Assembly (NCBI RefSeq): GCF_963675165.1 | Contig: NC_087380.1 | Location: forward strand, 328,001-392,000 | From: Halichondria panicea | Taxonomy: Eukaryota; Porifera; Demospongiae; Suberitida; Halichondriidae | Direction: 5' to 3' | DNA length: 64,000 nt | Shown: one piece after another, positions 225 to 64,000 of the stretch | Layout of the letters: the number at the start of each line of letters is the position of its first letter | How positions within the stretch are numbered: position 1 is the stretch's first letter | Position numbers and translations under genes: made by a program | The notes under the pieces: model-generated | The model's database searches: none | Told to the model about the DNA's origin: nothing | Seen by the model: only the letters and a program-made list of their open reading frames with translations

Positions 225-3200
225 ATGACCTCCATGCTGTGTGGACTAGTGTGTGTGGTCCTGCTCTCTGGGCTCACTGCACTGGCAGGGGGGCAGCAAG
301 GTGAGTCAGTAGATATATAGTCTATAAACGGTCTATAGTAATTATGCTAAATATAATAATATGAGTGGATTTGTTACATGCAGTCTACCTGACTCTGGGA
401 TCTGGTCCTAGCATCACTACTGACAATACTGAGATCCTCATCACTGCCATTGGAGAAGATGGTAGTCTCCCTTCTCTCACCTGTCACACTGACCTCACTA
501 CCTGCTGTAGAAGTAGTGACAACAATGATAATGGAGCACTAGGACAGTGGACGTATCCTGATGGGAGTGTGGTACTGCAAAAAGGTGGCTCAGCGACTGC
601 TGGACAACAGTTCTACGTTCTAAGGGGGGCACCTCAGGTCATCAGACTGGCTCGTAGAGAGGCTAGTACCAACCCTGTCACTCCAACTGGGTCCTACTGT
701 TGTTCTGTACTAACTACTGGAGGAGATATGACCCTCTGTGCTAACCTGGGTGAGTGGATCAATACTTCTGTGTTTTATGTTACCAGTATATGTTCGCCTT
801 TATGAGTTTATGAAACCATCACAACTCTCATAATTATTATTGTATAATGTTCATTCCATCTTGCAGTGGCACCAGTCTGTTCTGATAATCTCCCAGCCAT
901 CTCTAATGGAGCCATAACCTATGCTAGTGGATCCACTAACAACAGACCAGTGGGTGCTACAGCCAGTTACGCTTGTTTTAATCCCTACCGTCTGGTTGGA
1001 GTGTCAGTGAGGACTTGTGGGGGTGATGGAGAGTGGAGCTCAACAACAGCTCCAGTGTGTCAGAGTAAGGAATGACTGAATGTGTAATAATGTGTACGTT
1101 GAGTGTGTACCTGTTCCCATAGTGATCTGCTCTGACCTACCCTCACTGGAAAATGGGGACATTGACTATGGTGGTGGTGGATCCACTAACAGCAGACCAG
1201 TGAACACTGTGGCCACCTACACCTGTAACCCTGGCTACACTCTCAATGGAGGCACCACCAGGACTTGTGGGAGTGATGGAGTGTGGAGTGGGCCAGCTAT
1301 TGATTGTCAGCGTAAGTGGAATGGACTTTGTACTGTTTGTTTGTTGAGTGTATCGTCTCCCATACAGCTGACTGCCCTGACTTACTACTGATCAATGGGA
1401 TGATTATGTACAGTGCTGGATCCCCTGGCAACAGACCTTTCATCTCTACTGCTGTACACTCCTGTAACCCTGGCTACACTCTCACTGGAGGTACTTTCAC
1501 TACAGGCACCACCAGGATCTGTCTGGGTGGAGGGAAATGGAGTGGGTCACCTCCAACTTGTCAGCGTAAGTAAAGGAATTGAATTTGTACAGTATATTTG
1601 TTGAGTGTGTTCACTATTTCAGGAACTTGTTCTGATTTACCACCACTAATGAATGGAGGCATTACCTACACTGGTGGACTTGCTGACAGCAGACCCACTG
1701 CTACCTACACCTGTGACGATGGTTACACTCTCACTGAAGGGGTTAGCAGAGCTTGTCAGAATGATGGGACCTGGAGTGGATCAGCTCCAACCTGTCAAGG
1801 TGAGTTCCACTATACAACTTAACAGTTGCTTCATCTTTTTGAACAGTGAACACAGGACCCACTGAACCACCCACCACCTGTCCTGACCTCACTGTACCAG
1901 CCAATGGAATAATTAGCTACAATATGGGGACTGCTAGTCCCAGACCAGTGGACACTGTGGCCACCTACACCTGTATCTTCAGATACACTCTCAATGGAGA
2001 CACCACCACCAGGACTTGTGGGAGTGGAGTGTGGAGTGGGTCAGCTCCAACTTGTCAGCGTAAGTAAATGTACTTTGTACTGTTTGTTTGTTGAGTGTAC
2101 CATAATCCTATACAGGTATCTGCTTTTCCTTACCCCCACTGACCAACGGGGTGATTACCTACAGTGGTGGACCCACTGGCATCAGCTCTGATGGTAGTGG
2201 AGCTACCTATTCGTGTAACCCTGGCTTCACTCTCAATGGAGGTACCACCACCAGGACTTGTGGGAGTGATGGAGTGTGGAGTGGCAGTGAACCAACTTGT
2301 CAAGGTGACTGAGTTCTGTAACTCTTTCTCTCAATTTGTGGTTTTTTTAACTTACGTGGGTATACGCGTAAAGATTGTGTATATATTAAATGTCTAGTAC
2401 ATCGTTATTGAGGATCTTCTCCCCTACAGTGAACACAGGACCTACACCCTCTACCTGCCCTGACTTGACTGCTCCAACCAATGGAATGATTGGCTATGAT
2501 ATGGAGACCGTGAACGCTAGACCAGTGAACACCGTGGCTACCTACACCTGTAACACTGGCTACACTCTCAATGGAGGTATCACCACCATGACTTGTGGGA
2601 GTGATGGAGTGTGGAGTGACCTTGAGTCACCTCCTACTTGCAGTGAGTTATGCATGATGGATGAACTGTTTGAAACTTTAATATTTCTTCAAGTTGTCTC
2701 CTGTGGCAACCCTCCCATCATTATCAGTGGAATGATGACCAGCTCTACTGGTACAACATTCGGAGCAATGGCCACGTACACCTGCAACACTGGGTATCAA
2801 AGGTCAGGATCAGCCACAATAACTTGTCAGGCTAGTGGGAGCTGGAGTACAGCACCAGTGTGTACAGGTAAGACACAACACTGAACGTATTAATTGTATC
2901 AGACTATTTCCCACAGCTCTCTGTGATGATCTCATTGTACTAGCCAATGGAGTGATCAGCTACAGTCCAGCTACCACTCCCAGACTAGAGGGAGCCATGG
3001 CTACACACAGCTGTACTGAGGGGTACGGACTATCTGGTGGGATGGAGAGAACATGTCAGTCTGACAGAACATGGAGTGGAGTGATCATCACCTGCCAACA
3101 ATGTAAGTTAGTCTGCTCGTCATTCCATCATCACCCCCACCCCCACAGTACCTCCTGTCTACGTCTCCGTGGGAACCACCAACTATGCTGTTATGAACTC

Positions 3201-6200
3201 ACAGGTTGCCATAGGCACCATCGGAGAGGCTGATGACCAGGCGCTTATCTGCAGAACTGACAATGCTCAATGTTGTCGTGGAAGTGACGGACTTGCAGCC
3301 GGAGAGTGGAGCTTCCCCAGTGGAGAGGTTGTTCCTAGACGTGTTGATGGTAACACCTCTGTTCCCTTTTTTTCCTCCCGTGATACTGGGATACTTCGAC
3401 TCCATCGTCGAGGGTCTGTGTCAGGCCCCACTGGTTCCTACTGCGCTGTGATTCCTGACAATACTGGAGTAGATATGACATTCTGTGTGCTAATAGGTGG
3501 GTGTATTTTGCTCTGATACATATATCTACATATTTATAATATGTTGTTTTCAGTGACTGAAGTCATCATTACCTCTCCTCCTCCCATTACAAGTAAGCTG
3601 TCCTCTTTATTGACCATGTACTAGCAACTTCCCCACAGCCACTACCACTACTGGAGGAGATACTGTACCCACCGCTGCTAACAGCATAGGAGGTGTGGTG
3701 GCAGGTGTAGTCATTGTGTTACTCATTCTAGCCGCTGTCATTGTGGTGGGTATCATTGTCGGGGTCTACTTCTGGAGGTGAGACTATCATCAGAATGTGT
3801 GCATGTAATAATGTGTTGTTTTGTGTACAGGAAACTTCGTGGCAACCAGACCAAGTACAGCCCCTCCCCACGCCATGCCCCTCCCCCTCGCCCCACCCCC
3901 TATCAAGCATCCTTCAAGAAGAGCAACGGACAAGACAGTAAAGCCACCATTGAGAAAGTTGACGGTAAGAAAAATAACATTTTGTACTCTATTATTGACT
4001 ATCTTTTGATAATTAATTATACTGAGTTTTTTCAACTTTCAGCACCAACTATTTGTCTATATTTCAGAGCCTAGTATAGTAGAGTTTCCTAGTGATACTC
4101 ATGTGACGGAGGGGGAGGAGGTGTATCTGAGGGTGAAGGTGGGAGGTCACCCTCCACCCAGTCTCACCTGGTACCACGATGGTAGGAAGGTGACTGCAGA
4201 CTATGCCACAGAACTGTACCAGGACGGTGGATTATCCTTCCCTAGTGTGGAGACTAAGCATGCTGGTGAGAGTAGTGTCCATTGTTTAGGAAGTGTCTAC
4301 GTGATTTAGAAGCCCACATGTATAGTATCTCAAACATAGTGAAGGTTCTTCTAAATCACATGGAAACTCCCTAAACAGTGTCTAGATCATTATAAGCAAC
4401 CATGATCTGTCTCTAGCCAATCAGATTAGACTGATCTTAGCTAAGAAGTACCGTATAACTGGAAAATTTGGCAGGTGTTGTAATTTGGGATTTGGCAAAT
4501 TTTACCGAAGATCACCAAATTAGTTTTCCGATGGCACAACGTCATTGCTGTAGTAGCCACACCATGTCGATTCAAATTACTCCTTCACTAAATATAATAG
4601 TCGCCAAATTTTCCAGTTGTACGGTATAAGTTGGATAGAACACTACCTCTAGCCAATCAGATTACTGGATAAAAGATTGTAGGCTACACAAGGTCTTGTT
4701 GTATACTATAGTGTCAATGCACTTCCATTCTGAACTTCCTTTTCGGTGAATACAGTAGAACTCAATTATCCGGACACCTTGGTTCCAGAGGCAGGCCAGA
4801 TAACTGGATAAATATTATGCCGGATAATCGAATAGATAAACCACGCCTTGATCCATCTACTTAATTGATAAACAGCAGTGCATGTGGGCGTATGCGTATG
4901 CGCAGAAGATATGATAAACCTGTCTGTATCCATGGTAACAGCTGTTAATTGCGCATACGCATTAAGGGACATGCTCAAGCTCGATAAACGAGGCTCCGTA
5001 TAATCTGAGGTTCTACTATAACGTACCTACAATGTATTGTACATAACCACAGAGATGTTGATAAGATAACAGTGTGTGTTTATTGTAGGTGTATTGAAAC
5101 TAAAATCAATGTTGGTGTTTGCTCGTACTCTGTAGGTGTGTATAAACTGGTGGTTACTGGAGCCTCAGGGTCAACAACACAACAGCTCGTCACGGTAACA
5201 GTGATGAGTGAGGGTGGTGAGGCTAGTGAGGGGGTGGAGGGGGTGGACTACGCCCCCATACCTGTGACAGAGTTTGGAGTGTACGTGGCTGACCTCCATG
5301 CTGGCAGCAATAAGAAGTTCAAAGATCTTTACAAGGTAATGTTATACTAGCTGTGTGTGTGGGTGTGAGAGTGTGTACTAGCAATGGCCATACTAGGCAG
5401 CCTGCACCATCATCATAGTGGTGTAGGGTGACTATACTCACACACTCGCAATGTTGTAATGAGATTCATAATTATTGATTAAACTCTATTTGTGTTGAGT
5501 TTGACCTCCATAATGTTTTCATAATTTTTTCATACTTCACTAAAATTCGAAGTCATATACCATTGGATTCCTTGTTAACATGTGCTTCTATCTATCTAGA
5601 GGTGATAAGCTCCAACCAGCTAAAAGTTAGCATTTTCCTGTAAAAGTCCCTGGCATACTTATCAACCACATAAAGTAAACTATAGATGAAGCCATAAGTG
5701 ACTACAGAACTTCCAGGGCCAAACTCAACGCAAATGTTGGGACACACACACACACTCAGAATCTGGACAGTGGGGAGAGGGGTCATCCAGTTATCATTTC
5801 AGTGACTCCTGAGAACAGAGTCAACAACAGATTTGGCAACATTGCTGTGTGTGAGTGTATATCCTCAGAGTTAGCACGTATTAGTAGTTGTGTGTACACA
5901 GGCAGATGGTCAGCCAAGAGGTCATTATATGCATACAATGTGTGTGTGTGTGTGTATTCTCAGTAATAAACACCTATTCTTGCAGATGATGATAACCTTC
6001 TTGTGTTGCAACCCATCCCTGGACAAGAGGACTGTCAGAGTGACTACATCAATGCCTGCTATGTAGACGTGAGTGTGTGTGTGTTGAGCTCTTATTTTAA
6101 TGGTTCATTGTTTTTATTGTTGTGACCATTACAGCACATGTATGTACGTACATCATCTGCCTAATGACTTGCTGCATTCCACTGCTAATGGTGCACTTGT

Positions 6201-9200
6201 TGAGTATACAATGAAACCTTAGCTGTCTAAACTGGCTCTTTCATTCACTGTATTCTGTGTATAGTTTATTTGAAGCTTGTACCACAGCATACGTACATGT
6301 GCTAGCTCATGAATATTCTTTTTCTATTCTCAGGGGTACAAGAAGCCTAAAAAGTTCATAGCAACACAAGGTTGGTTCCTAAGTGTTGTATCCATACCTT
6401 ATATGGGCATTTTGTGGTTGTTGGTTTACCTTGTTGTGGGCACAGTTGAAACTGTAACCGTGTACAGTGATACACAGAACAGTCGTCATACTCATAGCAG
6501 TGACTCTGTAATGTGTTGTGGTTTTGTGGTCTGATCACACTCTCTGAGTCAGCAACTTCAAACAAGGGGACATTCCGTGTTGAGCTGCCCACCTGAAATG
6601 GTGTAGATGTGTTCCCACAAGAGCAGCACTGAGGAGTAGTTCAAATTTAAAGTTACTGTGCATGCATGCAGTGCTTCATTCTGAACTACTCTTCAGTGCC
6701 GCACGCATGCATACACCATATCCAGTAATTATAAGGTGGTGGGTAACACAGTTCATTCAAGTTGCTGTCGTGACTCATGAGTGACACAGAGGAGGTACGA
6801 CAGGCGCGGTGCAGCTCAGTAATTATGAACACTAATTATCCGCCCAATGTACAAAAATATTGTGAGTTCAATCAGAGGCGCTAATTGCATGCTAATGGCT
6901 GAGCTGCACCCCGCCTCTTCTGTGAGTGAATGGTCTACTCAACACACTTGAGAGTCAATGCCTGCTATATAATTATGAGTATGACAACTGTTCTGTAACT
7001 GATTGATCAGTGTATACAATTTAGTGTGATGTTTCCCCCTTCCCCTCATATAGGACCACTGCCACAAACTCTGGTGGACTTCTGGCGTCTCATGTGGCAG
7101 GAGAGACCACCCATAATAGTCATGCTCACCAACCTCAAGGAGAACAACAAGATCAAGTGTCAGCCATACTGGCCAGAGTCTGGGAAGAAGCAGTTTGGAC
7201 CATTCACAGTGGCCATTACAGATCAGCAGATACTGGCTGACTACACCATCAGAACACTGGAGGCTTCAGTGAGTTGCAATACACTGGCTTTATATAAGAG
7301 AGTGGGATTATTATCATCCTCTCTTCCCCCTGCCTCTAGTTGGATGGAGACCGCCGTGTGCTGAGAGTCAAGCTATTCCATTTCACTGCCTGGCCTGATC
7401 ACGGTGTGCCTGACTATGCCACGCCCATCCTTGGGTTCCATCGTCGGGTCCAGTCCCAACACAAGCCATCGAAAGGTCCTATTCTGATCCACTGCAGTGC
7501 TGGTGTGGGACGCACAGGCACTTACATTGCCATTGATAATGTCCTTGATCAGATCTCTGTCGAGGGTCTCATCGATATATCCGGTATCATTGTCAAATCT
7601 CGCAACCAGAGGATGAAGCTTGTACAAACACAGGTGGGTATACATCACTCTAATGCTATTGCTTCCATCCTTGTTGCTATTTTGATTCTACTGAGCATGC
7701 TCATTGCCCCTCTCCCTATAGGACCAATATGTGTTCATCCACGATGCTATCCTGGAGTCAGTGACGTGTGGAGACACTCAGATCAGTGCTGGAGATCTGC
7801 GCAGACAGATACAGAAGATGTTATCAGTAGCCCCGGGAAAAACCCTCTCAGATTTCCAATACCAGTTCCAAATTCTGGAACAGGTTACTCCAAATCCTAA
7901 AGAAGTTCGAAGTCCTATTGCTGTTAAGAATGCTGCCAGGAACAGGAACATGGACTACCTGCCACGTAAGGACTGCTGCTAACTGTGTACATTATATCCA
8001 TTCACTGTTTCCCCAACAATAGCTGAGACCAGTCGTGTGATTCTGAAGGGAGAGCAACCTGACTACATTCATGCTGTGTTTGCTCATGTAAGTGTTCAAC
8101 TACTACAGCCCTTGACCTATTGTACTCTTATGGTCCCCTCCCTCCCTCCAGGGCTACAAGCACCAGAAGGCATACATCATTGCCCAGAATCCACTGGACT
8201 CAACTGTACGTAACTTCTGGAAGGTGATCTATGACAGGAAGTGTGCGGCTGTTGTGATGTTGACTCCACTCAGTGAGAATGGGAAGGTAAGAGATGGTCT
8301 CCATTAGAGGTCCTCCCTGTTGAGTGTGTGTGTGTGTGCGTGTGTGTGTGTGTGTGTGTGTAGGAGGCATGCTCCCAGTACTGGCCAGAGAGTGGCAATG
8401 TCACCTCCTTCGGTGAATTCACTATCGATAACTTGGGGGAGGAAACCAACACTGGGTTCGTTATGAGGCAACTGAGCGTCCTCAATGAAAAGGTACGTCA
8501 TGCATCTCTTTGTTGCCTTCAAACCTCTCTTTATTCCTTGTTGCCTCCATGCAGACCCAAAAGGCCCATCAATTAATTCAGTTTCACATCATTAGCTGGA
8601 AAAGTAGTGGAAAGTGTGAGAACCTCAAGACTGTAACTGACGTCAATGAGGAGGTTATAAAGGTTCAAAGGAGGACTGGAAACAACCCTGTGCTGGTCCA
8701 CTGCAAGTACGTACAAGTGCTGTAATCTACTGGACATTTAATAGCCTTGTGTTCTAGAAGTCAGTCGATTTGGCAGATATCTTTGAGAGCCCGTCATTCG
8801 TATTCAGATTGTCCAATTTCAAATCATTTGATATAGCTCTCAGAATTTATATATTTGTAACTTCCCCCTATCCAGTGACACTGCGACCCGCTCTGGTATG
8901 TACTGCTCTGTAGCTACTACCATTGACCGTTGCAAGACAGAGGGAGTGGTGGATGTGTTCCAGGTGGTCAAGGCTCTCAGGGTCCACAAGCCAGGGGCAG
9001 TACCCTCAGTCGTGAGTTCATCTGCTGCTTACATAGTGGGAGGCTTGTACTATTGCAAGAGCCAGACCTTGCCTAGTATAGGACCTGTACCAACACATAC
9101 TGTTTAATACAAGATATTGTGAAAGCTTCAAGCCTCTGTACTGTTGATTAGTGCCATTTGCAATGTAGTTTTGTACCATCATGTGTGCCGTATTTGCGCG

Positions 9201-9470
9201 TCAGTCAATATGACTGCCACGTGCAGAGATGATAGCCTCAGATAGGGTCAAAGTTCACTGAGGCTACTATTTGATTGCGGCTTCCATTGCACTGAAGATG
9301 GGCTGTAGGGAGGCTACTATTTGAGGGCGGCCTTTATACAAGAGAGGCCTCTATCAAGCAAATACTGTAGTTAGTGTATCCCCTCACAGGACAACTACAA
9401 GGATCTGTTTGATGCTACTCTGGTCTACTTGGACTCCTTTGACAACTATGCCAACTTCCAAGATATTTGA
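225..9470 (+). CDS. RPTP-1: Ig-A + 9 CCP + Ig-B receptor tyrosine phosphatase
   Basis: Spliced gene of 29 inferred exons; the exon sum (4,899 nt) is an open frame of about 1,632 aa. Residues 1-25 are a signal peptide ([10 protein letters not shown]..., hydrophobic core [11 protein letters not shown]). Ig-A covers about 26-147, nine CCP modules 148-726 (four cysteines each with a GxW motif), Ig-B 727-842, the TM helix about 870-898 ([20 protein letters not shown]), then a proline-rich linker, a cytosolic I-set-like Ig 947-1079, PTP D1 1080-1400 and PTP D2 1401-1632. By family knowledge D1 should dephosphorylate phosphotyrosine at the inner membrane face: it has [17 protein letters not shown] (from nt 7490) and the Q-loop QTQDQYVF. 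D2 has HCNDTATRSG and no WPD. The ATG was chosen because all eight copies share it and its context. This is the copy with the longest ectodomain. Exons were inferred by eye from splice sites and paralogue comparison; the ligand is unknown. Confidence 0.9.
384..3777 (+). other. RPTP-1 ectodomain and TM exons
   Basis: Exons: signal peptide 225-300; Ig-A 384-749; CCP 867-1064, 1123-1311, 1368-1565, 1623-1799, 1847-2059, 2116-2304, 2430-2642, 2694-2867, 2917-3102; Ig-B 3149-3496; juxtamembrane mini-exon 3554-3592; TM 3639-3777. All from Ig-A to the mini-exon are multiples of 3 and phase 1-1. CCP types by opening motif: D (CSDNLPAISNG), E (CSDLPSLENG), C ([13 protein letters not shown]), A ([11 protein letters not shown]), B ([10 protein letters not shown]), C-like, B, then two modules (CGNPPIIISG and CDDLIVLANG). 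The first of those two occurs only here; the second is matched only by the 3' half of the last CCP of RPTP-7. Ig-B is the 348-nt subtype, shared only with RPTP-7. Confidence 0.8.
4284..4376. mobile_element. Short foldback (MITE-like) in the RPTP-1 I-set intron
   Basis: Imperfect inverted repeat: GTTTAGGAAGTGTCTACGTG at the left and its near complement ending GGAAACTCCCTAAAC at the right, with AGTGTC on both sides as possible target duplication. Absent from the same intron of copies 2-7. Confidence 0.55.
4449..4626. mobile_element. MITE, TACCGTATAACTGG ends
   Basis: Terminal inverted repeats of about 24 bp: it starts TACCGTATAACTGGAAAATT and ends with the complement GCCAAATTTTCCAGTTGTAC plus GGTA. 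Length 178 bp, no coding capacity. A related degenerate copy lies at 20943-21171. Confidence 0.75.
4753..5018. mobile_element. pogo/Tigger-like MITE
   Basis: It begins CAGTAGAACTCAATTATCCG and ends with the near complement TATAATCTGAGGTTCTACT, flanked by TA on both sides. Those ends and the TA duplication match the pogo/Tigger branch of Tc1/mariner elements. Length 266 bp, non-autonomous, no transposase frame. Confidence 0.65.
5494..5729. mobile_element. MITE copy A (GTTGAGTTTGACCTC ends)
   Basis: Ends GTTGAGTTTGACCTC and GGGCCAAACTCAAC are inverted repeats. The body is an inverted copy of 9684-9906 downstream of the same gene (shared stretches include AGCTGGTTGGAGCTTA and its complement). 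It sits in the intron before the first D1 exon. Confidence 0.65.
6626..6699. repeat. Hairpin-forming inverted repeat in an RPTP-1 D1 intron
   Basis: GCACTGAGGAGTAGTTCA at 6626-6643 is complementary, with one mismatch, to 6682-6699; the loop is 38 nt. It lies in the 683-bp intron 6371-7053, which is longer than in the other copies. Confidence 0.6.
6802..6916. mobile_element. MITE-like element, AGGCGCGGTGCAGCTCAG ends
   Basis: The left end AGGCGCGGTGCAGCTCAG is complementary, with one mismatch, to the right end CTGAGCTGCACCCCGCCT. Length 115 bp, in the same RPTP-1 intron as the preceding hairpin; absent from the other copies. Confidence 0.6.
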
Positions 9471-9563
9471 TGTACATGAACTATACACAAGAAATGAACA
9501 AATGTAATTATGGACTCTGTTGAGTATAGAGATTATTGACTTCCTTTTAACATCCTTTTGTAC

Positions 9564-9569
9564 AATAAA
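9564..9569 (+). terminator. Possible poly(A) signal of RPTP-1
   Basis: AATAAA lies 94 bp after the RPTP-1 stop, inside TACAATAAAATT. At the equivalent place other copies read TACAATAATAATT or diverge, so the hexamer is not conserved across the family and the signal is tentative. Confidence 0.4.
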
Positions 9570-9683
9570 ATTATCATAGACCTCTTTATTTTGTATAATC
9601 AGAGCAGAGCCGTTTGTTATCACCCTGAATTCGAATATCAAATAACAGATATTAATAATGCAGACATTGTAATAATTAAATGC

Positions 9684-9906
9684 GTTGAGTTCGGCCTCTG
9701 AAGTTATGTGGTCAATTATAGCTTCATTAATGCTTTATGTGGTGGACAAGTATGCCTGGGACTTCTACATGGAAAATGCTAACTTTTAGCTGGTTGGAGC
9801 TTACCAGCTCTACAGCATAATTATAGATACAAACTTTTTTAACAAGGACTCCAATAATTATTGAATTTCTGTGAAGTATGACAACTTTATGAAGGTCGAA
9901 CTCAAC
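9684..9906. mobile_element. MITE copy B (GTTGAGTTCGGCCTC ends)
   Basis: Opposite orientation to copy A. It lies in the spacer between RPTP-1 and RPTP-2 and ends AGGTCGAACTCAAC. Two copies in opposite orientation in or beside one gene could pair. Confidence 0.65.
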
Positions 9907-10020
9907 ACTAATAGACTTTAGCATTCAATTTCCTAATAAGAGTATTAAAGTACACTCACTTGAATTTCAAGTACACCCACCACTTGAATGAGCCTAAGGC
10001 TAAGGCTAGCATGCAGTACT

Positions 10021-13200: not shown

Positions 13201-16200
13201 TGACTTGCAGAACTGACTCAACTATTTGCTGTACAGGACAAGATAATCCCAATAGTGCCAATGGATTAGGAGATTGGCTACTACCAAATGGAACAGCTGT
13301 CACTAGGAGTCCGGACATTACTGATTCAGACACAGATCTACTGTACAGTGTTGGAGATACAGGTGCACTCAGACTCCATCGTCGAGGGTCTGTGTCAGGC
13401 CCCACTGGCTCCTACTGCTGTGTGATTCCTGACAATACTGGAGATAACACAACATTCTGTGTACAGTTAGGTAAGTGGGTCTGTGTTCTCATCCATTTAC
13501 TGTATTATCCTGTGTTTCAGTGACTGAAGTCATCACTACCTCTTCTCCGAGTAAGTTAATTGCCATCTTTATGGACTATGTACTAGCATCCTCCCCACAG
13601 GCCCTGGTGAAGCTAACAACACAGGAGGTGTGGTGGCAGGTGTATTCATTGTGTTACTCATTCTAGCTGCTGTCATTGTGGTGGGTATCATTGTCGGGGT
13701 CTACTTCTGGAGGTGAGACTATCATCAGAATGTGTGCATGTAATAATGTGTTGTTTTGTGTACAGGAAACTTCGTGGCAACCAGACCAAGTACAGCCCCT
13801 CCCCATGCCATGCCCCTCCCCCTCGCCCCACCCCCTATCAAGCATCCTTCAAGAAGAGCAACGGACAAGACAGTAAAGTCACCATCCAGAAAGTTGACGG
13901 TAAGAAAAACATATTTTATTATACTATCAGTACCAACTGTTTCTCAGAGCCTAGTATAGTAGAGTTTCCTAGTGATACTCATGTGACGGAGGGGGAGGAG
14001 GTGTATCTGAGGGTGAAGGTGGGAGGTCACCCTCCACCCAGTCTCACCTGGTACCACGATGGTAGGAAGGTGACTGCAGACTATGCCACAGAACTGGACC
14101 AGGACGGTGGATTATCCTTCCCTAGTGTGGAGACTAAGCATGCTGGTGAGTACAGGCTATAATGTACCTACAATGGCATAAGATAACAGTGAATGTTTAC
14201 TGTGCATATTGAAAACTAAGATTAATGTTTACACGACTCTGTACGTAGGTGTGTATAAACTGGTGGTTACTGGAGCCTCAGGGTCAACAACACAACAGGT
14301 CGTCACGGTAACAGTGATGAGTGAGGGTGGTGAGGCTAGTGAGGGGGTGGAGGGGGTGGACTACGCCCCCATACCTGTGACAGAGTTTGGAGCGTATGTG
14401 GCTGACCTCCATGCTGGCAGCAATAAGAAGTTCAAAGATCTTTACAAGGTAATGTTATACTAGCTGTGTGTGTGGGCGTGACAATAATGTACTTTATCCA
14501 CACACACACACTCAGAATCTGGACAGTGGGGAGAGGGGTCATCCAGTGATTATTTCAGTGACTCCTGAGAACAAACTCAACAACAGATTTGGCAACATTG
14601 CTGTGTGTGAGTGTATATCCTGAGAGTTAGCACATATTAGTAGTTGTGTGTACACAGGCAGATGCATGGAGGTCATAGCACTGTGTGTGTGTGTTCTCAT
14701 ATCTCATACTAATCACACATATTCCTGCAGATGATGACAACCTCATTATCCTAGACCCCATCCCTGGACAAGAGGACTGTCAGTGTGACTACATCAATGC
14801 CTGCTATGTAGACGTGAGTGTGTGTGTTGAGCTCTTATTTTAATGGTTCAATGTTTTTATTGTTGTGGCCTTTACAAAATGTATACATTGTACATCTGCT
14901 TATAATTACTTAAGTATACAATGAAACCTTAGCTCTCTATATACTGGCCCTCTCATTCACTGCATGTATACACACACACATACTTGCATAATTATGCTTT
15001 GTGTGCGCATACGCAGCGATGTATGACAGTAGTGTGTACACTCTTTTCACCATTTGCATGCAAATGTAATGATAGTCTGCTAGTACTGTAGATTCATCAC
15101 CGTAAGGCTTTGGCCCACCGAGGCATCAGCACCCGCAGTGCTTTCATTATTGTATAGTATCTGGTACCAGCACATGAATTTATTTCTTCTTGTATTCTCA
15201 GGGGTACAAGAAGCCTAAAAGGTTCATAGCAACACAAGGTGAGGTCCTGGGTTACCAAATGTGTACCATTACCTTATATGGGCATCGAGGTGGTCCTTGT
15301 TTACCTTGTTGTGGGCACAGTTGAAACTGTAACTGATCCGACTAGAAAAACATTTGTTACGGCTACTACTGAGTATGACCACTGTTCTTTGCAAACCAGC
15401 TACTGATTGTTCAGTGTAAAATTCAGTGTTTTCCCCCTCCCCCTCATATAGGACCACTGCCAGGAACTCTGGTGGACTTCTGGCGTCTCATGTGGCAGGA
15501 GAGACCACCCATAATAGTCATGCTCACCAACCTCATGGAGAACAACAAGATCAAATGTGAAGAGTACTGGCCCGAGTCTGGGAAGAAGCATTTTGGCCCA
15601 TTCACAGTGGCCATTACAGATCAGCAAATACTGGCTGACTACACCGTCAGGACACTGGAGGCTTCAGTGAGTTACAATACACTGGCTTTATATAAGAGAA
15701 TGGGATTATTATCAGCCTCCCCCTGCCTCTAGTTGGATGGAGACCGCCGTGTGCTGAGAGTCAAGCTATTCCATTTCACTGCCTGGCCTGATCACGGTGT
15801 GCCTGACTATGCCACGCCCATTCTTGCATTCCATCGTCGGGTCCAGTCCCAACACAAGCCATCGAAAGGTCCTATTCTGATCCACTGCAGTGCTGGTGTG
15901 GGACGCACAGGCACTTACATTGCCATTGATAATGTCCTCGATCAGATCTCAGTCGATGGTCTCATCGATATTTCCGGCACCATTGTCAAATCTCGCAACC
16001 AGAGGATGAAGCTTGTACAAACACAGGTGGGTATACACCACTCTAATGCTATTGCTTCCATCATTGCTGCCATTTTGATTCTACTGAGCATGCTCATTGC
16101 CCCTCTTCCTCTAGGACCAATATGTGTTCATCCACGATGCTATCCTGGAGTCAGTGACGTGTGGAGACACTCAGATCAGTGCTGGAGATCTGCGCAGACA

Positions 16201-21300: not shown

Positions 21301-23583
21301 ATGACCCAAAAAGGCACACCATCGACACACCCCAAAACAGTGTCTATATATATATTATATTATAGTTACTTATGTTGATGATCTCACACCCTATATGGTC
21401 AACACAGGACCTACTGAACCACCCACCACCTGTCCTGACCTCACTGTACCAGCCAATGGAATGATCAGCTACACTATGGGGACTGCTAGTCTGAGACCAG
21501 TGGGCACTATGGCCACCTACACCTGTGACACTGGCTACACTCTCAATGGAGGCAGCACTAGGGTCTGTGTGACTGGATGGATCTGGAGTGGGTCAACTCC
21601 AACTTGCCAAGGTGACTCTTGTACGTATGTATTTCAACTTATGTGGGTATACACGTATGATGTTTCATCGATTCAATTTCTGGTGGACATTTTTAAAGGA
21701 GTATGATGATGATCTTCTCCCCTACAGTGGATACAGGACCGACAGTTGCTCCATCCATCACCTGCCCTGACCTAACTTCTATGACCAATGGAATGATCAG
21801 CTACAATACGGGGAATAGTCCCAGATCAGTGGACACTGTGGCCACCTACACCTGTGACACTGGCTACACTCTCAATGGAGGTACTACCACCAGGACTTGT
21901 AGGAGTGATGGAATGTGGAGTGGGTCAGCTCCAAATTGTCAAGGTAAGTGAAACTGATTTATACTGTTTATTTGTTGAATGTGTGTTCACTATTTCAGGA
22001 CCTTGTTCTGATTTACCACCACTAATGAATGGAGACATTGCCTACACTGGTGGACTTGCTGACAGCAGGCCTATTAATACAATTGCTACCTACACTTGTG
22101 ACAATGGCTACACTCTCACTGGAGGGAGTTTCCGAGCTTGTCCGAATGATGGGACCTGGAGTGGAACAACTCCAACCTGTCAATGTGAGTTCCACTACAT
22201 CTTAACAGTTGCTTCACCTTTCTGTTACAGTGAACACAGGACCCACTGAACCACCCACCACCTGTCCTGACCTGACTGTATCAACCAATGGAATGATCAC
22301 CTACAATATGGGGACTGTTAGTCTGAGACCAGTGGGCACTATGGCCACCTATAACTGTACCACTGACTACACTCTGGATGGAGGCAGCACCAGGACTTGT
22401 GGGAGTGATGGAATGTGGAGTGGGTCAGCTCCAACTTGTCTGTGTAAGTACAATTTGTGTGCAGTTATTTAGTTGAGTGCATTTTGCTCTGATGACATCT
22501 CCTTTACTGTTGTGTTTCAGTAGCGGAAATCACTACCTCTCCCCCCACTGCAAGTAAGTTAATTGTCCCCTTTAATTTACTGACCATGTACTAGCAACCT
22601 CCCCACAGCCACTGCCACTACTGGAGGGGACACTGGGCCCACCACTGCAGCTAACAACACAGGAGGTGTGGTGGCAGGTGTAGTCCTTGTGTTACTCATT
22701 CTAGCCGCTGTCATTGTGGTGGGTATCATTGTCGGGGTCTACTTCTGGAGGTGAGACTATCATCAGAATGTGTGCATGTAATAATGTGTTGTTTTGTGTA
22801 CAGGAAACTTCGTGGCAACCAGACCAAGTACACACAATCACCCTCCCCACGTCATGCCCCTCCCCCTCGCCCCATCCCCTATCAAGCATCCTTCAAGAAG
22901 AGCAACGGACAAGACAGTAAAGTCACTATTGAGAAAGTCGACGGTAAGAAAAGTAAAGCAGCATTCTGCACTATTTTTGTGTCTGTATAATTATACAGAG
23001 CGTTTTTCAACTTTCAGCACCAACTATTTGTCTATATTTCAGAGCCTAGTATAGTAGAGTTTCCTAGTGATACTCATGTGACGGAGGGGGAGGAGGTGTA
23101 TCTGAGGGTGAAGGTGGGAGGTCACCCTCCACCCAGTATCACCTGGTACCACGACAGTAGGAAGGTGACTGCAGACTATGCCACAGAACTGGACCAGGAC
23201 GATGGATTATCCTTCCCTAGTGTGGAGACTAAGCATGCTGGTGAGTACAGGCTATAATGTACCTACAATGGCACAAGATAACAGTGAATGTTTACTGTGC
23301 ATATTGAAAACTAAGATTAATGTTTACACGACTCTGTACGTAGGTGTGTATAAACTGGTGGTTACTGGAGCCTCAGGGTCAACAACACAACAGGTCGTCA
23401 CGGTAACAGTGATGAGTGAGGGTGGTGAGGCTAGTGAGGGGGTGGAGGGGGTGAACTACGCCGCCATACCTGTGACAGAGTTTGGAGCGTACGTGGCTGA
23501 CCTCCATGCTGGCAGCAATAAGAAGTTCAAAGATCTTTACAAGGTAATGTTATACTAGCTGTGTGTGTGGGCGTATGTATTAT

Positions 23584-23645
<62 letters not shown>

Positions 23646-24158: not shown

Positions 24159-24221
<63 letters not shown>

Positions 24222-30500: not shown

Positions 30501-33500
30501 TGAATGGATACGTACCCTCCACTACCAGCACTGCTACCAGAGTGTGTAGAGCTGACAGATTGTGGAGTGGATCAGCTCTCACTTGTCAATGTAAGCTAGT
30601 ACAATGAACTCTAACAGAGTTACAATCCCCCACCCCCACAGTACCGCCTGTCTACGTCTCCGTGGGAACCACCAACTATGCTGCTAATAACTCACAGGTT
30701 GCCATAGACACCATCGGAGATACCACTGAGACAGCATTGACTTGCAGAACTAACTCAACTATTTGCTGTACAGGAAAAGATAATCCCAATAGTGCCAATG
30801 GATTAGGAGATTGGCTGTTTCCGAATGGAACAGTTGTCACTAGGAGTCAGGAAATTACTGATTCAGACACTGATCTACTGTACAGAAGTCGAAATACAAG
30901 TGCACTCAGACTCCATCGTCGAGGGTCTGTGTCAGGCCCCACTGGCTCCTACTGCTGTGTGATTCCTGACAATACTGAAGTAGATATGACATTCTGTGTG
31001 CAGTTAGGTAAGTGGGTCTGTGCATCCATCACTGTATTATCCTGTGTTTCAGTCACTGAATCCATTACTACCTCTCCTCCAATGTTAATTGTCCCCTGTA
31101 CTGACCATGTACTAGCAACCTCCCCACAGCCACAGCCACTACTGGAGGGGACACTGATGCTAGCAACACAGGAGGTGTGGTGGCAGGTGTAGTCATTGTG
31201 TTACTCATTCTAGCCGCTGTCATTGTGGTGGGTATCATTGTCGGGGTCTACTTCTGGAGGTGAGACTATCATCAGAATGTGTGCATGTAATAATGTGTTG
31301 TTTTGTGTACAGGAAACTTCGTGGCAACCAGACCAAGTACAGTCCCTCCCCACGCCATGCCCCTCCCCCTCGCCCCACCCCCTATCAAGCATCCTTCAAG
31401 AAGAGCAACGGACAAGACAGTAAAGTCACCATCCAGAAAGTTGACGGTAAGTAGAACTTTTGTTCAACTTTCAGCATCAACTATTTGTCTATATTTTCAG
31501 AGCCTAGTATAGTAGAGTTTCCTAGTGATACTCATGTGACGGAGGGGGAGGAGGTGTATCTGAGGGTGAAGGTGGGAGGTCACCCTCCACCCAGTCTCAC
31601 CTGGTACCACGATGGTAGGATGGTGACTGCAGACTATGCCACAGAACTGGACCAGGACGGTGGATTATCCTTCCCTAGTGTGGAGACTAAGCATGCTGGT
31701 GAGTACAGGCTATAATGTACCTACAATGACATAAGATAACAGTGAATGTTTACTGTGCATATTGAAAACTAAGATTAATGTTTACATGACTCTGTACGTA
31801 GGTGTGTATAAACTGGTGGTTACTGGAGCCTCAGGGTCAACAACACAACAGGTCGTCACGGTAACAGTGATGAGTGAGGGTGGTGAGGCTAGTGAGGGGG
31901 TGGAGGGGGTGGACTACGCCCCCATACCTGTGACAGAGTTTGGAGCGTACGTGGCTGACCTCCATGCTGGCAGTAATAAGAAGTTCAAAGATCTTTACAA
32001 GGTAATGTTATAGCTGTGTGTGTGGGCGTGTGTACCTTATCCACACACACACTCAGAATCTGGACAGTGGGGAGAGGGGTCATCCAGTGATTATTTCAGT
32101 GACTCCTGAGAACAAACTCAACAACAGATTTGGCAACATTGCTGTGTGTGAGTGTATATCCTGAAAGTTAGCACATATTAGCAGTTGTGTGTACACAGGC
32201 AGATGAAGGTCATAACACTGTGTGTGTGTGTGTTCTCATATCTCATACTAATCACACATATTCCTGCAGATGATGACAACCTCATTATCTTAGACCCCAT
32301 CCCTGGACAAGAGGACTGTCAGAGTGACTACATCAATGCCTGCTATGTAGACGTGAGTGTGTGTGTGTTGAGCTCTTATTTTAATGGTTCAATGTTTTTG
32401 TTTTTATTGTTGTTGCTTTTACAGTGTGTATACATCTGCCTAATGACTTGCTGCATTCCACTGCTAATCGCACACTTGTTGAGTATACAATTAATGAAAC
32501 CTTCGTACAAACATTGCATAATTATGCCTTTCCTGTGTGCACATGCGCAGCAAGATAGTGTGTTTGTGCGTGTGTGCGTGTGTCTGTACTTTCCATCGTA
32601 CGTGTCCCATTCTTTCACCATTCCATGCATGCAAACAATTGATGTCTGCTAGTACTATAGCTTCATTGCCGTAAAGCTTTGGCCCCTCCACCGAAGCATC
32701 AGCACCTGCAGTGCTTTCATTATTCTATGGTATCTGGTACCAGCTCATGAATTTATTTCTTCTTCTATTCTCAGGGGTACAAGAAGCCTAAAAGGTTCAT
32801 AGCAACACAAGGTAAAGTCCTGGGTTACCAAGTGTGTACCATACCTTATATGGGCATTGAGGTAGTCATTGTTTACCTTGTTGTGGTCATAGTTGAAACT
32901 GTAACTGATCAGCTAGAAAAACACATTTGTTACTGCTACTAGCTACTATGAGTATGATCTGTAAACCATTTTGTAACTGATTGTATAATTTCGGTGTATA
33001 ATTTCGGTGTAATGTAATGTTTTTCTCCCTCTAGGACCACTGCCAGGAACTCTGGTGGACTTCTGGCGCATGATGTGGCAGGAGAGACCACCCATAATAG
33101 TCATGCTCACCAACCTCATGGAGAACAACAAGATCAAGTGCGAACAATACTGGCCAGAGTCTGGGAAGAAGCAGTTTGGACCATTCACAGTGGCCATTAC
33201 AGATCAGCAAATACTGGCTGACTACACCATGAGGACATTGGAGGCTTCAGTGAGTTAGTGTTGCAATACCACGGCTTTATATAAGAGAGTGGTGGATTAT
33301 TTTCCGCCTCTCTTCCCCTGCCTCTAGTTGGAGGGAGATCGCCGTGTGCTGAGAGTCAAGCTATTCCATTTCACTGCCTGGCCTGATCACGGTGTGCCTG
33401 ACTATGCCACGCCCATTCTTGCATTCCATCGTCGGGTTAAGTCTCAGCACAAGCCATCGAAAGGTCCTATTCTGATCCACTGCAGTGCTGGTGTGGGACG

Positions 33501-39500: not shown

Positions 39501-42500
39501 GTCTATATTTCAGAGCCTAGTATAGTAGAGTTTCCTAGTGATACTCATGTGACGGAGGGGGAGGAGGTGTATCTGAGGGTGAAGGTGGGAGGTCACCCTC
39601 CACCCAGTCTCACCTGGTACCACGATAGTAGGAAGGTGACTGCAGACTATGCCACAGAACTGGACCAGGACGGTGGATTATCCTTCCCTAGTGTTGAGAC
39701 TAAGCATGCTGGTGAGTACAGGCTATAATGTACCTACAATGACATAAGATAACAGTGAATGTTTACTGTGCATATTGAAAACTAAGATTAATGTTTACAT
39801 GACTCTGTACGTAGGTGTGTATAAACTGGTGGTTACTGGAGCCTCAGGGTCAACAACACAACAGGTCGTCACGGTAACAGTGATGAGTGAGGGTGGTGAG
39901 GCTAGTGAGGGGGTGGAGGGGGTGGACTACGCCCCCATACCTGTGACAGAGTTTGGAGCGTACGTGGCTGACCTCCATGCTGGCAGCAATAAGAAGTTCA
40001 AACATCTTTACAAGGTAATGTTATACTAGCTGTGTGTGCAATCAACTACGTGTACTTTATCCACACACACTCAGAATCTGGACAGTGGGGAGAGGGGTCA
40101 TCCAGTGATTATTTCAGTGACTCCTGAGAACAAACTCAACAACAGATTTGGCAACATTGCTGTGTGTGAGTGTATATCCTGAGAGTTAGCACATATTAGT
40201 AGTTGTGTGTACACAGGCAGATGGAGGTCATAGCACTGTGTGTGTGTGTTCTCATATCTCATACTAATCACACCTATTCCTGCAGATGATGACAACCTCA
40301 TTATCCTAGACCCCATCCCTGGACAAGAGGACTGTCAGAGTGACTACATCAATGCCTGCTATGTAGACGTGAGTGTGTGTGTGTTGAGCTCTTATTTTAA
40401 TGGTTCAATGTTTTTGTTTTTATTGTTGTTGCTTTTACAGTGTGTATACATCTGCCTAATGACTTGCTGCATTCCACTGCTAATGGCGCACTTGTTGAGT
40501 ATACAATGAAACCTTTGTACAAACATTGCATAATTGCATATGCCTTGCCTGTGTGCACATGCACAGCAAGATAGTGGGTTTGTGCGTGTGTCTGTACTTT
40601 CTATCATTTCCCATTCTTTATCACCATTCCATGCATTGAAATGTTATGATAGTCTGCAGCTTCGATTCATTGCCGTAAAGCTTTGGCACCTTGTGCTTTC
40701 ATTATTGTATGGTATCTGGTACCAGCTCATGAATTTATTTCTTCTTGTGTTCTCAGGGGTACAAGAAGCCTAAAAGGTTCATAGCAACACAAGGTGAGGT
40801 CCTGGGTTACTACATGTAAGTGTGTACCATTACCTTATATGGGCATTGAGGTAGTCATTGTTTATCTTGTTGTGGGCACAGTTGAAACTGTAACTGATCA
40901 GCTAGAAAAACATTTGTTACTGCCTATGAGTATGACCACTGTTCTGCAAACCACTGTAACTTATTGCATATGGTTCAGTAAAATTTCAGTGTAATGTTTT
41001 TCTCCCTCCAGGACCACTGCCAGGAACTCTGGTGGACTTCTGGCGTCTCATGTGGCAGGAGAGACCTCACATAATAGTCATGCTCACCAACCTCAAGGAG
41101 AACAACAAGATCAAATGCGAACAATACTGGCCCGAGTCTGGGAAGAAGCAGTTTGGACCATTCACAGTTGCCATTACAGATCAGCAGATACTGGCTGACT
41201 ACACCATCAGAACATTGGAGGCTTCAGTGAGTTAGTGTTGCAATACCACACAGGCTTTATATAAGAGAGTGAGTGGGATTATTATCATCCTATCTTCCCC
41301 TGCCTCTAGTTGGATGGAGACCGCCGTGTGCTGAGAGTCAAGCTATTCCATTTCACTGCCTGGCCTGATCACGGTGTGCCTGACTATGCCACGCCCATTC
41401 TTGGGTTCCATCGTCGGGTTAAGTCTCAGCACAAGCCATCGAAAGGTCCTATTCTGATCCACTGCAGTGCTGGTGTGGGACGCACAGGCACTTACATTGC
41501 CATTGATAATGTCCTCGATCAGATCTCTGTCGATGGTCTCATCGATATTTCCAGTACCATTGTCAAATCTCGCAACCAGAGGATGAAGCTTGTACAAACA
41601 CAGGTGGGTATACATCACTCTAATGCTATTGCTTCCATCATTGCTGCCATTTTGATTCTACTGAGCATGCTCATTGCCTCTCTACCTATAGGACCAATAT
41701 GTGTTCATCCACGATGCTATCCTGGAGTCAGTGACGTGTGGAGACACTCAGATCAGTGCTGGAGATCTGCGCAGACAGATACAGAAGATGTCATTAGTAT
41801 CCACGGGAAAAACCATCTCTGATTTCCAATACCAGTTCCAAATTCTGGAACAGGTTACTCCAAATCCTAAAGAAGTTCGAAGTCCTATTGCTGTTAAGAA
41901 TGCTGCCAGGAACAGGAACATGGACTACCTGCCACGTAACGACTGCTGCTAACTGTGTACATTATATCCATTCACTGTTTCCCCAACAATAGCTGAAACC
42001 AGTCGTGTGATTCTGAAGGGAGAGCAACCTGACTACATTCATGCTGTGTTTGCTCATGTAAGTGTTCAACTACTAGAGCCCTTGACCTATTGTACTCTCA
42101 TGGTCCCCTCCCTCCCTCCAGGGCTACAAGCACCAGAAGGCATACATCATTGCCCAGAATCCACTGGACTCAACTGTGCGTAACTTCTGGAAGGTGATCT
42201 ATGACAGGAAGTGTGCGGCTGTTGTGATGTTGACTCCACTCAGTGAGAATGGGCAGGTAAGAGATGGTCTCCATTAGAGGTCCTCCCTGTTGAGTGTGTG
42301 TGTGTGTAGGAGGTATGCTCCCAGTACTGGCCAGAGAGTGGCAATGTCACCTCCTTCGGTGAGTTCACCATCGATAACTTGGGGGAGGAAACCAACACTG
42401 GGTTCATTATGAGGCAACTGAGTGTCCTCAATGAAAAGGTACGTCATGCATCTCTTTGTTGCCTTCAAACCTCTCTCTTTTACTTGTTGCCTCCATGTAG

Positions 42501-44044: not shown

Positions 44045-54478
<10,434 letters not shown>

Positions 54479-54703
54479 TGTAAATTAATTGACACAAGAA
54501 ATGAACAAATTGTATATAATTATATGAACTCTACATGTTGAGTATAATAGATTTATATGGACAGGCCCGAATACTTTATAGAGACTATTGACTTCCTTTT
54601 TGTGTAATCACGAGCACAGCTGTTTGTAATCACCCTGAATTCGTATTATTATAATAACTTGATGTTTATAAATATTAACAGATAATAATACCGCAGACAT
54701 AAT

Positions 54704-54930
54704 TATGCACCTCGAGGCATAGCCGCACGAGGATACGATAAAGTTGACTATGCATGTGTGTGTCTGTGTGTGTGTATTCCAGCTGTAACTGCTCAACGGT
54801 CGCAATGCAACGAACACTAACAGCTCGGCTTCTAGCCAGGATTTTGATTCATAGATTTGCAAACTAAAGCTTTGTTTTCGAGTTATGGCTATTTTTACTT
54901 ACAGTGAAGGCTGTTGCAGTCTTTCAGAAC
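54704..54930. repeat. Probable dispersed repeat upstream of RPTP-7
   Basis: ACCTCGAGGCATAGCCGCAC through GTATTCCAGCTGTAACTGCT to TTCGAGTTATGGC. Part of it (TCCATTCCAGGTGTAACTGC, then ACTAACAG, then GGCCTCTAG) recurs near 35605-35660 upstream of RPTP-5, so it is a repeat and not unique spacer sequence. Confidence 0.45.
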
Positions 54931-55079
54931 CGTTGCTAGCATCATCTGCAAACAATTAATCAGTTTCTGTGAGCATGCTGACTGAGGGATCCAGCATCTG
55001 CAGGCAAAACACAAGCTGTTTCAGGACATAAATTATAACATGTAATAATTTATAGTATAGCATTCAATTTCCTAATAAG

Positions 55080-55314
55080 AGTACATGCAATAAGAAGTAG
55101 ATCTACACCCACTTGAATGGACCTATGTACTGTGCATACACAGGGAGGTGGTATATATAGCGCCACTACAATGGGCCTAAGGCTGTAGCTAGCAGTGTAT
55201 ACTGCTTACAGGGACGTGGTTAGTGCCATAAGATATATTATACTAGCTGCAACAACACAGCTATAGCTAGCTAGGGATACCTACTAACTGTCCACCATTG
55301 AAGAGAGACTACCC
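55080..55314 (+). promoter_or_regulatory. RPTP-7 promoter-like block
   Basis: GAGGTGGTATATATAGCGCC with the TATATATA stretch at about 55152, 163 bp before the ATG, then the shared leader. The spacer 54479-55079 also contains a probable dispersed repeat (about 54704-54930) and a copy of the intergenic element (54961-55024). Confidence 0.5.
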
Positions 55315-62745
<7,431 letters not shown>

Positions 62746-63049
62746 TGTACATGAACTATACACAAGAAATGAACAAATTGTTTACATGATTTCTGTTGAG
62801 TATAATAGATTTGTATGGACAGACCTGAGATTATTAACTTCCCTTTTTTTAGAGAGCTCTTTAGTGTAATCACGAGCACAGCTGTTTGTTAATCACCCTG
62901 AATTCAATGATAATAACCAAATAACATCGCAGACATAATTATTAAACATAAATTCAAGCGGTTTCAACACATATAACATGATATATATATACGTAGTATA
63001 GCATTCAATTTCCTTATAAGAATACGTACGTACAATAAGTACACTCACT

Positions 63050-63298
63050 CAAGTTTAAAAGTAGATCTACGCCCACTTTGAATGGGCCTAAGGCTAGCAG
63101 TACAGTATAGTATTGTGCTTACACAGGGAGGTGGTATATATAGCGCCACTACGATGGTCCTAAGGCTATAGCGTGCAGTACTCTACTTCAGGGACTCCGA
63201 GGTGGTGTAGGGCCACAAAGGCATTGTACTAGCTGCAACAACACAGCTATCTAGCTAGGGATACCTACTAACTATCTACCATTGAAGAGAGACTACCC
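63050..63298 (+). promoter_or_regulatory. RPTP-8 promoter-like block
   Basis: GAGGTGGTATATATAGCGCC with the TATATATA stretch at about 63135, 164 bp before the ATG. The rest of the spacer from 62746 is AT-rich; near 62950-62970 only the tail of the intergenic element (GCGGTTTCAACACAT) can be recognised. Confidence 0.5.
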
Positions 63299-63374
63299 AT
63301 GACCTCCATGCTGTGTGGACTAGTGTGTGTGGTCCTGCTCTCTGGGCTCACTGTACCGGCAGGGGGACAGCAAA
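63299..63374 (+). CDS. RPTP-8: signal peptide exon only (gene runs off the window)
   Basis: The same first exon as the other copies ([10 protein letters not shown], then [15 protein letters not shown]), ending in a GTAAGT donor in phase 1. The following 626 bp are first intron only, closely related to the first introns of RPTP-2 and RPTP-7, so the next exon is predicted to be a type A CCP with no Ig-A, beyond base 64000. No phosphatase exon is visible, so the family assignment rests on the signal exon and leader. Confidence 0.7.
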
Positions 63375-64000
63375 GTAAGTCAGTATAATTATATAGCTTT
63401 AGCTATATACGGTGTAATATTAAGGTAGATTCCTGCATGCATTATGAGTCATGCAGGTGGTATTATGGATCACTTTGACAAAACGCTTCCAAAATTTCTT
63501 TTACACTACTGAACTGATATGAAACTCTTTGATCACCCTTTATCTATATAGTGCACTTGTTCAGCAGATTTTACTCAGTGCCCATGTGTAAACACCATGC
63601 ATGCACTTAATCTCACTTCACTTGACACATGTGAGCATTAATACTTGTGGTATACACACTGCACATTATATATTCGAGAAACAGGTTGTGGTTGCCGTAC
63701 GGAAAAGACGACCATATATAACTATCGTAATAAATACCTCTCTTACTCTGGTGTCTCCACACAACTGTTGTATAGCTTCCTCCGGCCAACCAGCAACTAA
63801 TTTTTGTTAGGTATTGAAAAAATGCATTTTTGTTGTTAATTTGCTATGAATTTTATTACACATGCAGTAGTTGAATTAAGCACTATAGCCTCTTTGTTGT
63901 TGTTGAAGAACGATGTGACTCATAATATCATCGTTCCCCAAATTTGTATTTTGCACATCACTTATAAATAGTTACATAAGTAGGACATTTGGTACTGATT

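Follow-up and report, generated by a model that had tools for sequence, protein, structure and literature searches.

A tandem array of receptor tyrosine phosphatases with shuffled ectodomains as a candidate self/non-self recognition system in a sponge

The fester/FcoR (FF/FcoR) receptors of Botryllus schlosseri are the closest apparent analogue in action to a family of membrane receptors encoded in a sponge genome, part of which, a tandem array of receptor protein tyrosine phosphatases (RPTPs), occupies the 64,000-nucleotide stretch analysed here (the window; contig C4, positions 328001-392000). The published account describes FF/FcoR ectodomains of immunoglobulin (Ig) and Sushi domains, the latter also known as complement control protein (CCP) domains, together with FcoR tails that carry an immunoreceptor tyrosine-based inhibitory motif (ITIM), a hemi-immunoreceptor tyrosine-based activation motif (hemITAM) or a core Y-x-x-I/L/V, and pairs arranged in polymorphic haplotypes (PMC12065747). 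Like the sponge genes, those of Botryllus are polygenic and encode type I receptors that bear Ig and Sushi domains outside, include a class with tyrosine-motif tails, and comprise two related classes encoded together. In the sponge, however, the other class is a receptor phosphatase with a cytosolic Ig domain, the CCPs are many and shuffled, and each class occupies arrays of its own instead of the adjacent pairs of Botryllus; the likeness is one of architecture alone.

The Alr complex of Hydractinia is likewise a large cluster of unusual Ig-superfamily membrane genes, with 41 members, and the available portion of its description mentions neither CCP nor phosphatase domains (PMC11999971); allorecognition is reported for that complex, whereas it is inferred for the sponge genes. 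Sponges distinguish self from non-self grafts, according to a grafting transcriptome study (PMC5450542), and the account that describes Alr also discusses adhesion molecules and the aggregation factor in connection with sponge recognition (PMC11999971). In the main text of the grafting study the words phosphatase, immunoglobulin, sushi, CCP and candidate occur 0 times (PMC5450542). Among the literature matches listed, which cover the field in part, none describes sponge receptor phosphatases of the CCP/Ig kind, and nothing relevant on an intracellular Ig domain in an RPTP or on an RPTP expansion in sponges appears there, which falls short of proving absence.

The catalytic half of the sponge receptors resembles the R2A phosphatases LAR and PTP-sigma in its tandem of D1 and D2 domains, its D1 catalytic motifs and its best matches in PDB. 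The R2A receptors (LAR, PTP-sigma and PTP-delta) carry Ig and FN3 domains outside. The sponge proteins differ in having a CCP/Ig-like outside, a cytosolic I-set domain between the transmembrane (TM) span and D1, and a D2 whose DTATRSG P-loop and WN or WK both depart from the P-loop and WPE-type loop of the aligned PTP-sigma D2. The cytosolic I-set resembles cytosolic domains like those of titin, in that a titin construct is its best PDB match and it has no cysteines, but it sits between membrane span and phosphatase. In vertebrates, a phosphatase receptor such as CD45 balances receptors with tyrosine-motif tails, and the paired receptors (KIR, LILR and SIRP) combine shared outsides with differing insides. 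The vertebrate phosphatase is usually recruited or separate, whereas in the sponge array it is fused to a diversified ectodomain.

The phosphatase array

The layout of the array, with a constant inside and a variable outside, suggests a candidate self/non-self recognition system. Genes were located by profile and peptide scans, which yielded 18 module chains, and a simple splice-site search then produced gene models; genome-wide counts refer to a 131-Mb genome in 39 contigs. The window contains seven complete RPTP genes and the 5' end of an eighth, and the whole array comprises 18 genes over ~157 kb (C4:328225-485073). A run of at least eight head-to-tail paralogues, reported in a previous sequence-only reading of the window, is therefore real and extends to 18. 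There are 18 plus-strand copies of the motif HCSAGVGRT across the array (C4:335 kb to C4:483 kb), a nearly identical signal peptide opens every gene, a TM exon is present in each, and 12 constant D1/D2 exons are common to all, barring a few broken or odd exons. Sixteen of the 18 modelled frames are free of internal stops, one junction of gene 18 being left out of its model, and the seven complete window models have open frames of 1229-1619 amino acids (aa). On these models, each array gene is a predicted type I membrane receptor with the anatomy of a classical RPTP: a signal peptide, a single TM span (by hydropathy in 16/18 models) and a cytoplasmic D1 with WPD and HCxAGxGR(S/T) motifs. The main features are given below in window positions, with IgA and IgB denoting the two outer Ig-like domains.

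225-9470, plus strand: gene 1, with signal peptide, IgA, 9 CCPs, IgB, TM, juxtamembrane stretch, cytoplasmic Ig, PTP D1 and D2; 28 exons, 1619 aa
10219-17740, plus strand: gene 2, with signal peptide, 8 CCPs, IgB, TM, cytoplasmic Ig, D1 and D2; 1444 aa
18397-27172, plus strand: gene 3, with signal peptide, 7 CCPs, TM, cytoplasmic Ig, D1 and D2; outer Ig not found; 1278 aa
27567-35376, plus strand: gene 4, with signal peptide, 8 CCPs, IgB, TM, cytoplasmic Ig, D1 and D2; 1454 aa
36561-43427, plus strand: gene 5, with signal peptide, IgA, 6 CCPs, IgB, TM, cytoplasmic Ig, D1 and D2; 1444 aa
44045-54478, plus strand: gene 6, with signal peptide, IgA remnant (44304-44411), 6 CCPs, no IgB, TM, cytoplasmic Ig, D1 and D2; 1229 aa excluding the remnant
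55315-62745, plus strand: gene 7, with signal peptide, 7 CCPs, IgB, TM, cytoplasmic Ig, D1 and D2; 25 exons, 1360 aa
58185-58296, plus strand: TM exon of gene 7, the sole above-threshold hydrophobic stretch past the signal peptide
59143-60930, plus strand: D1 exons of gene 7, with WPDHGVP and the second catalytic motif intact; D1 continues into the next exon
61019-62745, plus strand: end of D1 and D2 exons of gene 7; D2 keeps C(X)5R, and WN replaces the WP of the WPD loop
63299-64000, plus strand: 5' end of gene 8, its signal peptide exon; the gene extends to 69983, beyond the window

Long GT/CA runs lie in introns of genes 6 and 7 (51581-51708, 59084-59138 and 59668-59776).

Constant inside and variable outside

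The 12 D1/D2 exons had been described as equal in length and nearly identical in sequence among the seven complete copies, and both statements hold. Their lengths are the same in all seven window genes (91, 83, 37, 215, 294, 244, 65, 135, 129, 152, 136 and 81 nt), with the qualification that in gene 5 the splice search gave one of the 136-nt exons a length of 178 nt, which we take to be a modelling artefact. The other array genes keep these lengths except gene 9 (292 for 294 and 204 for 244 nt), gene 15 (247 for 244 nt) and the broken gene 16. Mean nucleotide identity is 0.962 for D1 and 0.975 for D2 over 16 array genes, genes 9 and 16 being set aside. Pfam recovers Sushi, I-set and Y_phosphatase domains from pieces of gene 7, whose D1 and D2 score 262 and 183 bits, respectively, against Y_phosphatase; the nearest PDB sequences are those of PTP-sigma and LAR, with PTP-alpha also among the closest. 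The D1 motifs, WPDHGVP included, are retained in 18/18 genes, the frame of gene 9 breaking right past the P-loop, and D1 is active-looking. D2 keeps C(X)5R in a DTATRSG P-loop, but WN or WK stands in 18/18 genes where the WP of the WPD loop should be, and D2 is for that reason probably inactive.

Ratios of nonsynonymous to synonymous substitution (dN/dS) were obtained by the Nei-Gojobori method over paralogue pairs with a codon bootstrap and no phylogenetic model, over 16 genes (all but 9 and 16) and with gene 13 left out for IgA. D1 (0.19; 0.12-0.27) and D2 (0.25; 0.15-0.39) are under purifying selection. Values rise in the juxtamembrane stretch (0.41; 0.20-0.73) and the cytosolic Ig (0.53; 0.28-1.17) and reach 0.59 in IgB (0.46-0.74; n=11), 0.70-1.24 in the six CCP types a-f and 1.04 in IgA (0.71-1.53; n=7), with 0.90 (0.29-2.71) for the signal peptide and 1.05 (0.68-1.70) for the TM exon. 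This contrast between ectodomain and phosphatase exons, together with ectodomain strings that are distinct in 18/18 array genes, bears out the proposed division into a constant inside and a variable outside.

The window genes carry 9, 8, 7, 8, 6, 6 and 7 CCPs in order, matching the range of 6 to 9 given previously, and the whole array spans 2-9, with or without IgA and IgB. Four combinations of IgA and IgB had been counted in the window; three are intact (both in genes 1 and 5, IgB only in genes 2, 4 and 7, neither in gene 3), and the fourth is gene 6, which lacks IgB and retains a truncated IgA remnant. Clustering at a distance cut of 0.35 sorts the CCPs into 17 types; 152 were taken and 148 used, four being too short, and left-cluster matches of 25 bits or less and two CCPs of an incomplete third gene at locus L041 were left out. 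Certain cassettes, among them 'Ig f e b' and 'c a b c a', reappear in differing orders.

Between the TM exon and D1, behind a proline-rich juxtamembrane stretch, lies an I-set Ig domain (in gene 7, Pfam I-set 7e-14, 52 bits against a cut-off of 23.7) that has no cysteine in any of the 18 array copies; in PDB it comes closest to a titin construct and next to Robo receptors. This cysteine-free Ig domain, predicted to lie on the cytoplasmic side, is new here and had been missed in the sequence-only reading. In each window gene the domain and its linker occupy two exons:

4068-5335, plus strand: cytoplasmic I-set Ig and linker of gene 1
13948-14448, plus strand: cytoplasmic I-set Ig and linker of gene 2
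23043-23543, plus strand: cytoplasmic I-set Ig and linker of gene 3
31501-32001, plus strand: cytoplasmic I-set Ig and linker of gene 4
39514-40014, plus strand: cytoplasmic I-set Ig and linker of gene 5
50120-50620, plus strand: cytoplasmic I-set Ig and linker of gene 6
58562-59042, plus strand: cytoplasmic I-set Ig and linker of gene 7 (I-set 7e-14; no cysteine)

That the domain is an outer one which the gene model puts in the wrong place was considered and rejected: 16 models (all but genes 9 and 16) have one strong TM span, upstream of the Ig, and an outer position is also contradicted by the uniform lack of cysteine and by the same order of open frames in a distant gene on contig C3 (C3:2486001-2494000, minus strand). 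That gene, a distant receptor phosphatase and possible outgroup, has an FN3-like (E 0.00016, below the Pfam cut-off) and Thr-rich outside, after which come, one behind the other, a hydrophobic stretch, an I-set domain and pieces of D1/D2. Because its I-set and D1/D2 stand behind an FN3-like outside, the cytosolic Ig likely predates the CCP/Ig outside, as judged from the open frames of this one gene.

Counted by the first cytosolic-Ig exon at 60% identity or more, the phosphatase class occupies at least 37 places, 35 on C4 and 2 on C1 (80 matches in all, from the best 150 of 203 candidates scored). A second CCP/Ig phosphatase subfamily lies at C4:1332001-1340000; over half its length, its cytosolic Ig exon matches that of the window array almost perfectly, suggesting gene conversion across ~0.9 Mb. 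Further receptor phosphatase matches with Ig-like domains nearby occur at C4:2.09-2.33 Mb and 2.58-2.61 Mb, with no cytosolic-Ig match there among the best 150 of 203 candidates scored.

The tyrosine-tail receptor class

The sequence-only reading missed, besides the cytoplasmic Ig and the full extent of 18 genes, a sister class of tail-bearing genes, which is likewise new here. To the left of the window, on the minus strand at C4:299000-325000, lie genes with CCP and Ig-like domains followed by a TM span and a short tail that replaces the phosphatase. Across the genome the tail peptide is matched at 41 places, 38 of them on C4, a contig that makes up 5.9% of the total. Each of the ten distinct tails read holds three YxxΦ motifs (Yxx[IVLM] cores). 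An immunoreceptor tyrosine-based activation motif (ITAM) was considered for these tails and rejected, the spacing of their tyrosine motifs being off the ITAM consensus.

Eight tail genes from the left cluster and L041, wholly or partly read, have CCP and Ig-like domains of the kinds seen in the phosphatase genes. In three genes of the left cluster Ig-like domains flank the CCPs on both sides, and the other five have one Ig-like domain or fragments in the parts read. The seven commonest CCP types are found in both receptor classes. In a tree of 129 CCPs of these types, which takes in genes 9 and 16 and has 24 CCPs from tail genes, there are 21 changes of class label against a shuffled mean of 22.3, and 113 of 500 shuffles give 21 or fewer changes, so the CCPs are not sorted by signalling class. 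Two IgA groups unite both classes with Shimodaira-Hasegawa-like approximate likelihood ratio (SH-aLRT) supports of 82 and 95. The IgB of gene 4 is 80-89% identical to 14 places and 69% identical to one more, among the matches scored, in tail-gene clusters 0.7-1.3 Mb away; its search gave at least 150 matches (the best 150 of 313 candidates), 141 on C4, a single domain being in some cases hit in two pieces. A chimeric tail gene lies on the minus strand at C4:314-318 kb: its TM exon is of the phosphatase type (identity of up to 99% over 112 bp), and a tyrosine-tail exon comes next (C4:314053-314637). In sequence the two classes show the layout of paired receptors: shared ectodomains, clustered genes and differing signalling parts.

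Between the tail-receptor cluster and the phosphatase array lies a multicopper oxidase gene (C4:325176-327707, minus strand; Cu-oxidase_3 3e-39 over the first 235 residues). A cluster of tyrosine-kinase-like (PF07714) matches is located at C4:2.52-2.76 Mb; as to kinases with the same outer domains, no IgB match falls at C4:2.62-2.76 Mb among the best 150 of 313 candidates. Elsewhere, a query with what we take to be the silicatein active-site pattern finds 8 places in the genome, against 2 for a reversed control, including clusters at C2:656-668 kb and C6:200-205 kb and a site at C13:25 kb. Two of these places read out continue as CGASYAFSAMGALEGAYAL and CGSSYAFSAIGALEGAASL, and such sites make a siliceous sponge the most likely source. 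A lone COX1 fragment of 64 positions with two TGA codons (C1:5280527-5280718) is probably a nuclear mitochondrial copy.

Possible function and rival explanations

We favour, at a probability of about 0.5, a reading from sequence in which the two classes are paired receptors, the phosphatase class acting with a tail class that is its likely substrate or counterpart, for recognition of non-self or microbes. The outer stalks would be built from a common stock of CCP and Ig-like cassettes, of which both classes carry the same kinds. The ligands of the two classes, borne by microbes or other cells, would be identical or overlap. Once a tyrosine kinase had phosphorylated them, the tails would signal; phosphatase receptors engaged alongside would either strip the tail phosphates or be kept out of the contact, giving the two classes opposite signalling and letting the balance of kinase and phosphatase set tolerance or rejection. 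Purifying selection and gene conversion would keep the inside alike, while shuffled cassettes and selection that is relaxed or positive would diversify the outside. With the genes expressed as modelled and D1 acting on the tails, the outcome would be recognition of a foreign sponge cell or microbe. The suggestion of immune or allorecognition receptors, already made in the sequence-only reading, fits the contrast between the two halves and is strengthened because the shuffled ectodomain stock is shared with the tyrosine-tail class.

A number of observations weigh against this paired-receptor reading. No module has a dN/dS significantly above 1 in the 16 array genes, and the near-identity of the insides is partly homogenisation, since 4 of 11 introns of the constant half differ by only 0.012-0.024. 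The ITIM consensus is [SIVL]xYxx[IVL] in a cytoplasmic tail, and a strict match occurs in 4 of the 10 distinct tails read. Ten rarer CCP types are each confined to one class, and type g belongs mostly to tail genes (4/5). The tail-class IgB copies Y03 and Y05 form a separate deep branch, and three other tail-class IgBs group together inside the phosphatase IgBs. The IgB of the chimeric tail gene is broken and fragmented, IgA of gene 13 is split, and genes 9 (C4:402-404 kb, frame break in D1) and 16 (C4:459-468 kb, broken D2a exon) are damaged. Outer IgA and IgB have no significant Pfam match and no PDB match up to E 1, with one of eight members matching I-set weakly at E 0.3; their putative Ig label comes from a C...W...GxYC pattern.

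The same receptors might serve microbes or symbionts without any part in allorecognition, the stalks binding bacterial surfaces and the tails tuning phagocytosis or tolerance. A large, shuffled, multi-copy repertoire suits a single polymorphic self marker no better than it suits a multitude of ligands, and one report describes expanded SRCR immune genes in a sponge (PMC10855680). Sequence cannot separate this explanation from allorecognition; the combination of Ig and Sushi domains with tyrosine-motif tails resembles FcoR of Botryllus, an allorecognition family, and we consider a microbe-only role possible at a clearly lower likelihood than the paired-receptor reading. A role as LAR-like phosphatases of cell adhesion or tissue patterning, with tandem genes supplying isoform diversity in place of alternative splicing, would accord with the nearest PDB relatives of D1/D2 (PTP-sigma, LAR and PTP-alpha) and with the distant C3 relative, which has a cytoplasmic I-set and D1/D2 behind its FN3-like outside. 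It is rendered improbable by the rapid evolution of the outside, the cassettes common to a non-phosphatase tail class and the tandem expansion, features that are unusual in developmental receptors.

The intron data also bear on a mostly neutral tandem expansion, in which likeness arises from unequal crossing-over and gene conversion and few copies matter. The 11 introns measured, which span the TM to D2 exons (n = 13-16 after exclusion of deviant lengths and of genes 9 and 16), show mean differences of 0.012-0.349; from this spread, homogenisation is patchy and acts on top of selection. The near-identity of some constant-half introns (0.012 and 0.022, for example), the two broken genes and the conspicuous stretch of cytoplasmic Ig in the 1.33-Mb subfamily that is identical to the array are all as expected under neutrality, but purifying selection on D1/D2, retained catalytic motifs, 16 of 18 modelled frames without internal stops and a signal peptide kept in 18/18 genes make this the least probable of the alternatives, and a quite unlikely one.

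A bolder form of the paired-receptor reading, which we put forward tentatively and hold to be rather less probable than its simpler form, would place on C4 a sponge histocompatibility complex, in which ~35 CCP/Ig receptor phosphatases and ~38 tyrosine-tail receptors swap cassettes, the inhibitory enzyme is fused to the recognition domain rather than recruited, and the cytosolic Ig couples both. In this bolder form the sponge would possess a counterpart of paired natural killer (NK)-type receptors that works via different signalling chemistry. A receptor that joins a phosphatase and a cytosolic Ig domain to a diversified ectodomain would also indicate that immune receptors can balance kinase against phosphatase by more than one design. 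With a catalytic class and a tail class located and their shuffled ectodomains shared, an old problem of self and non-self may become one of testable genetics.

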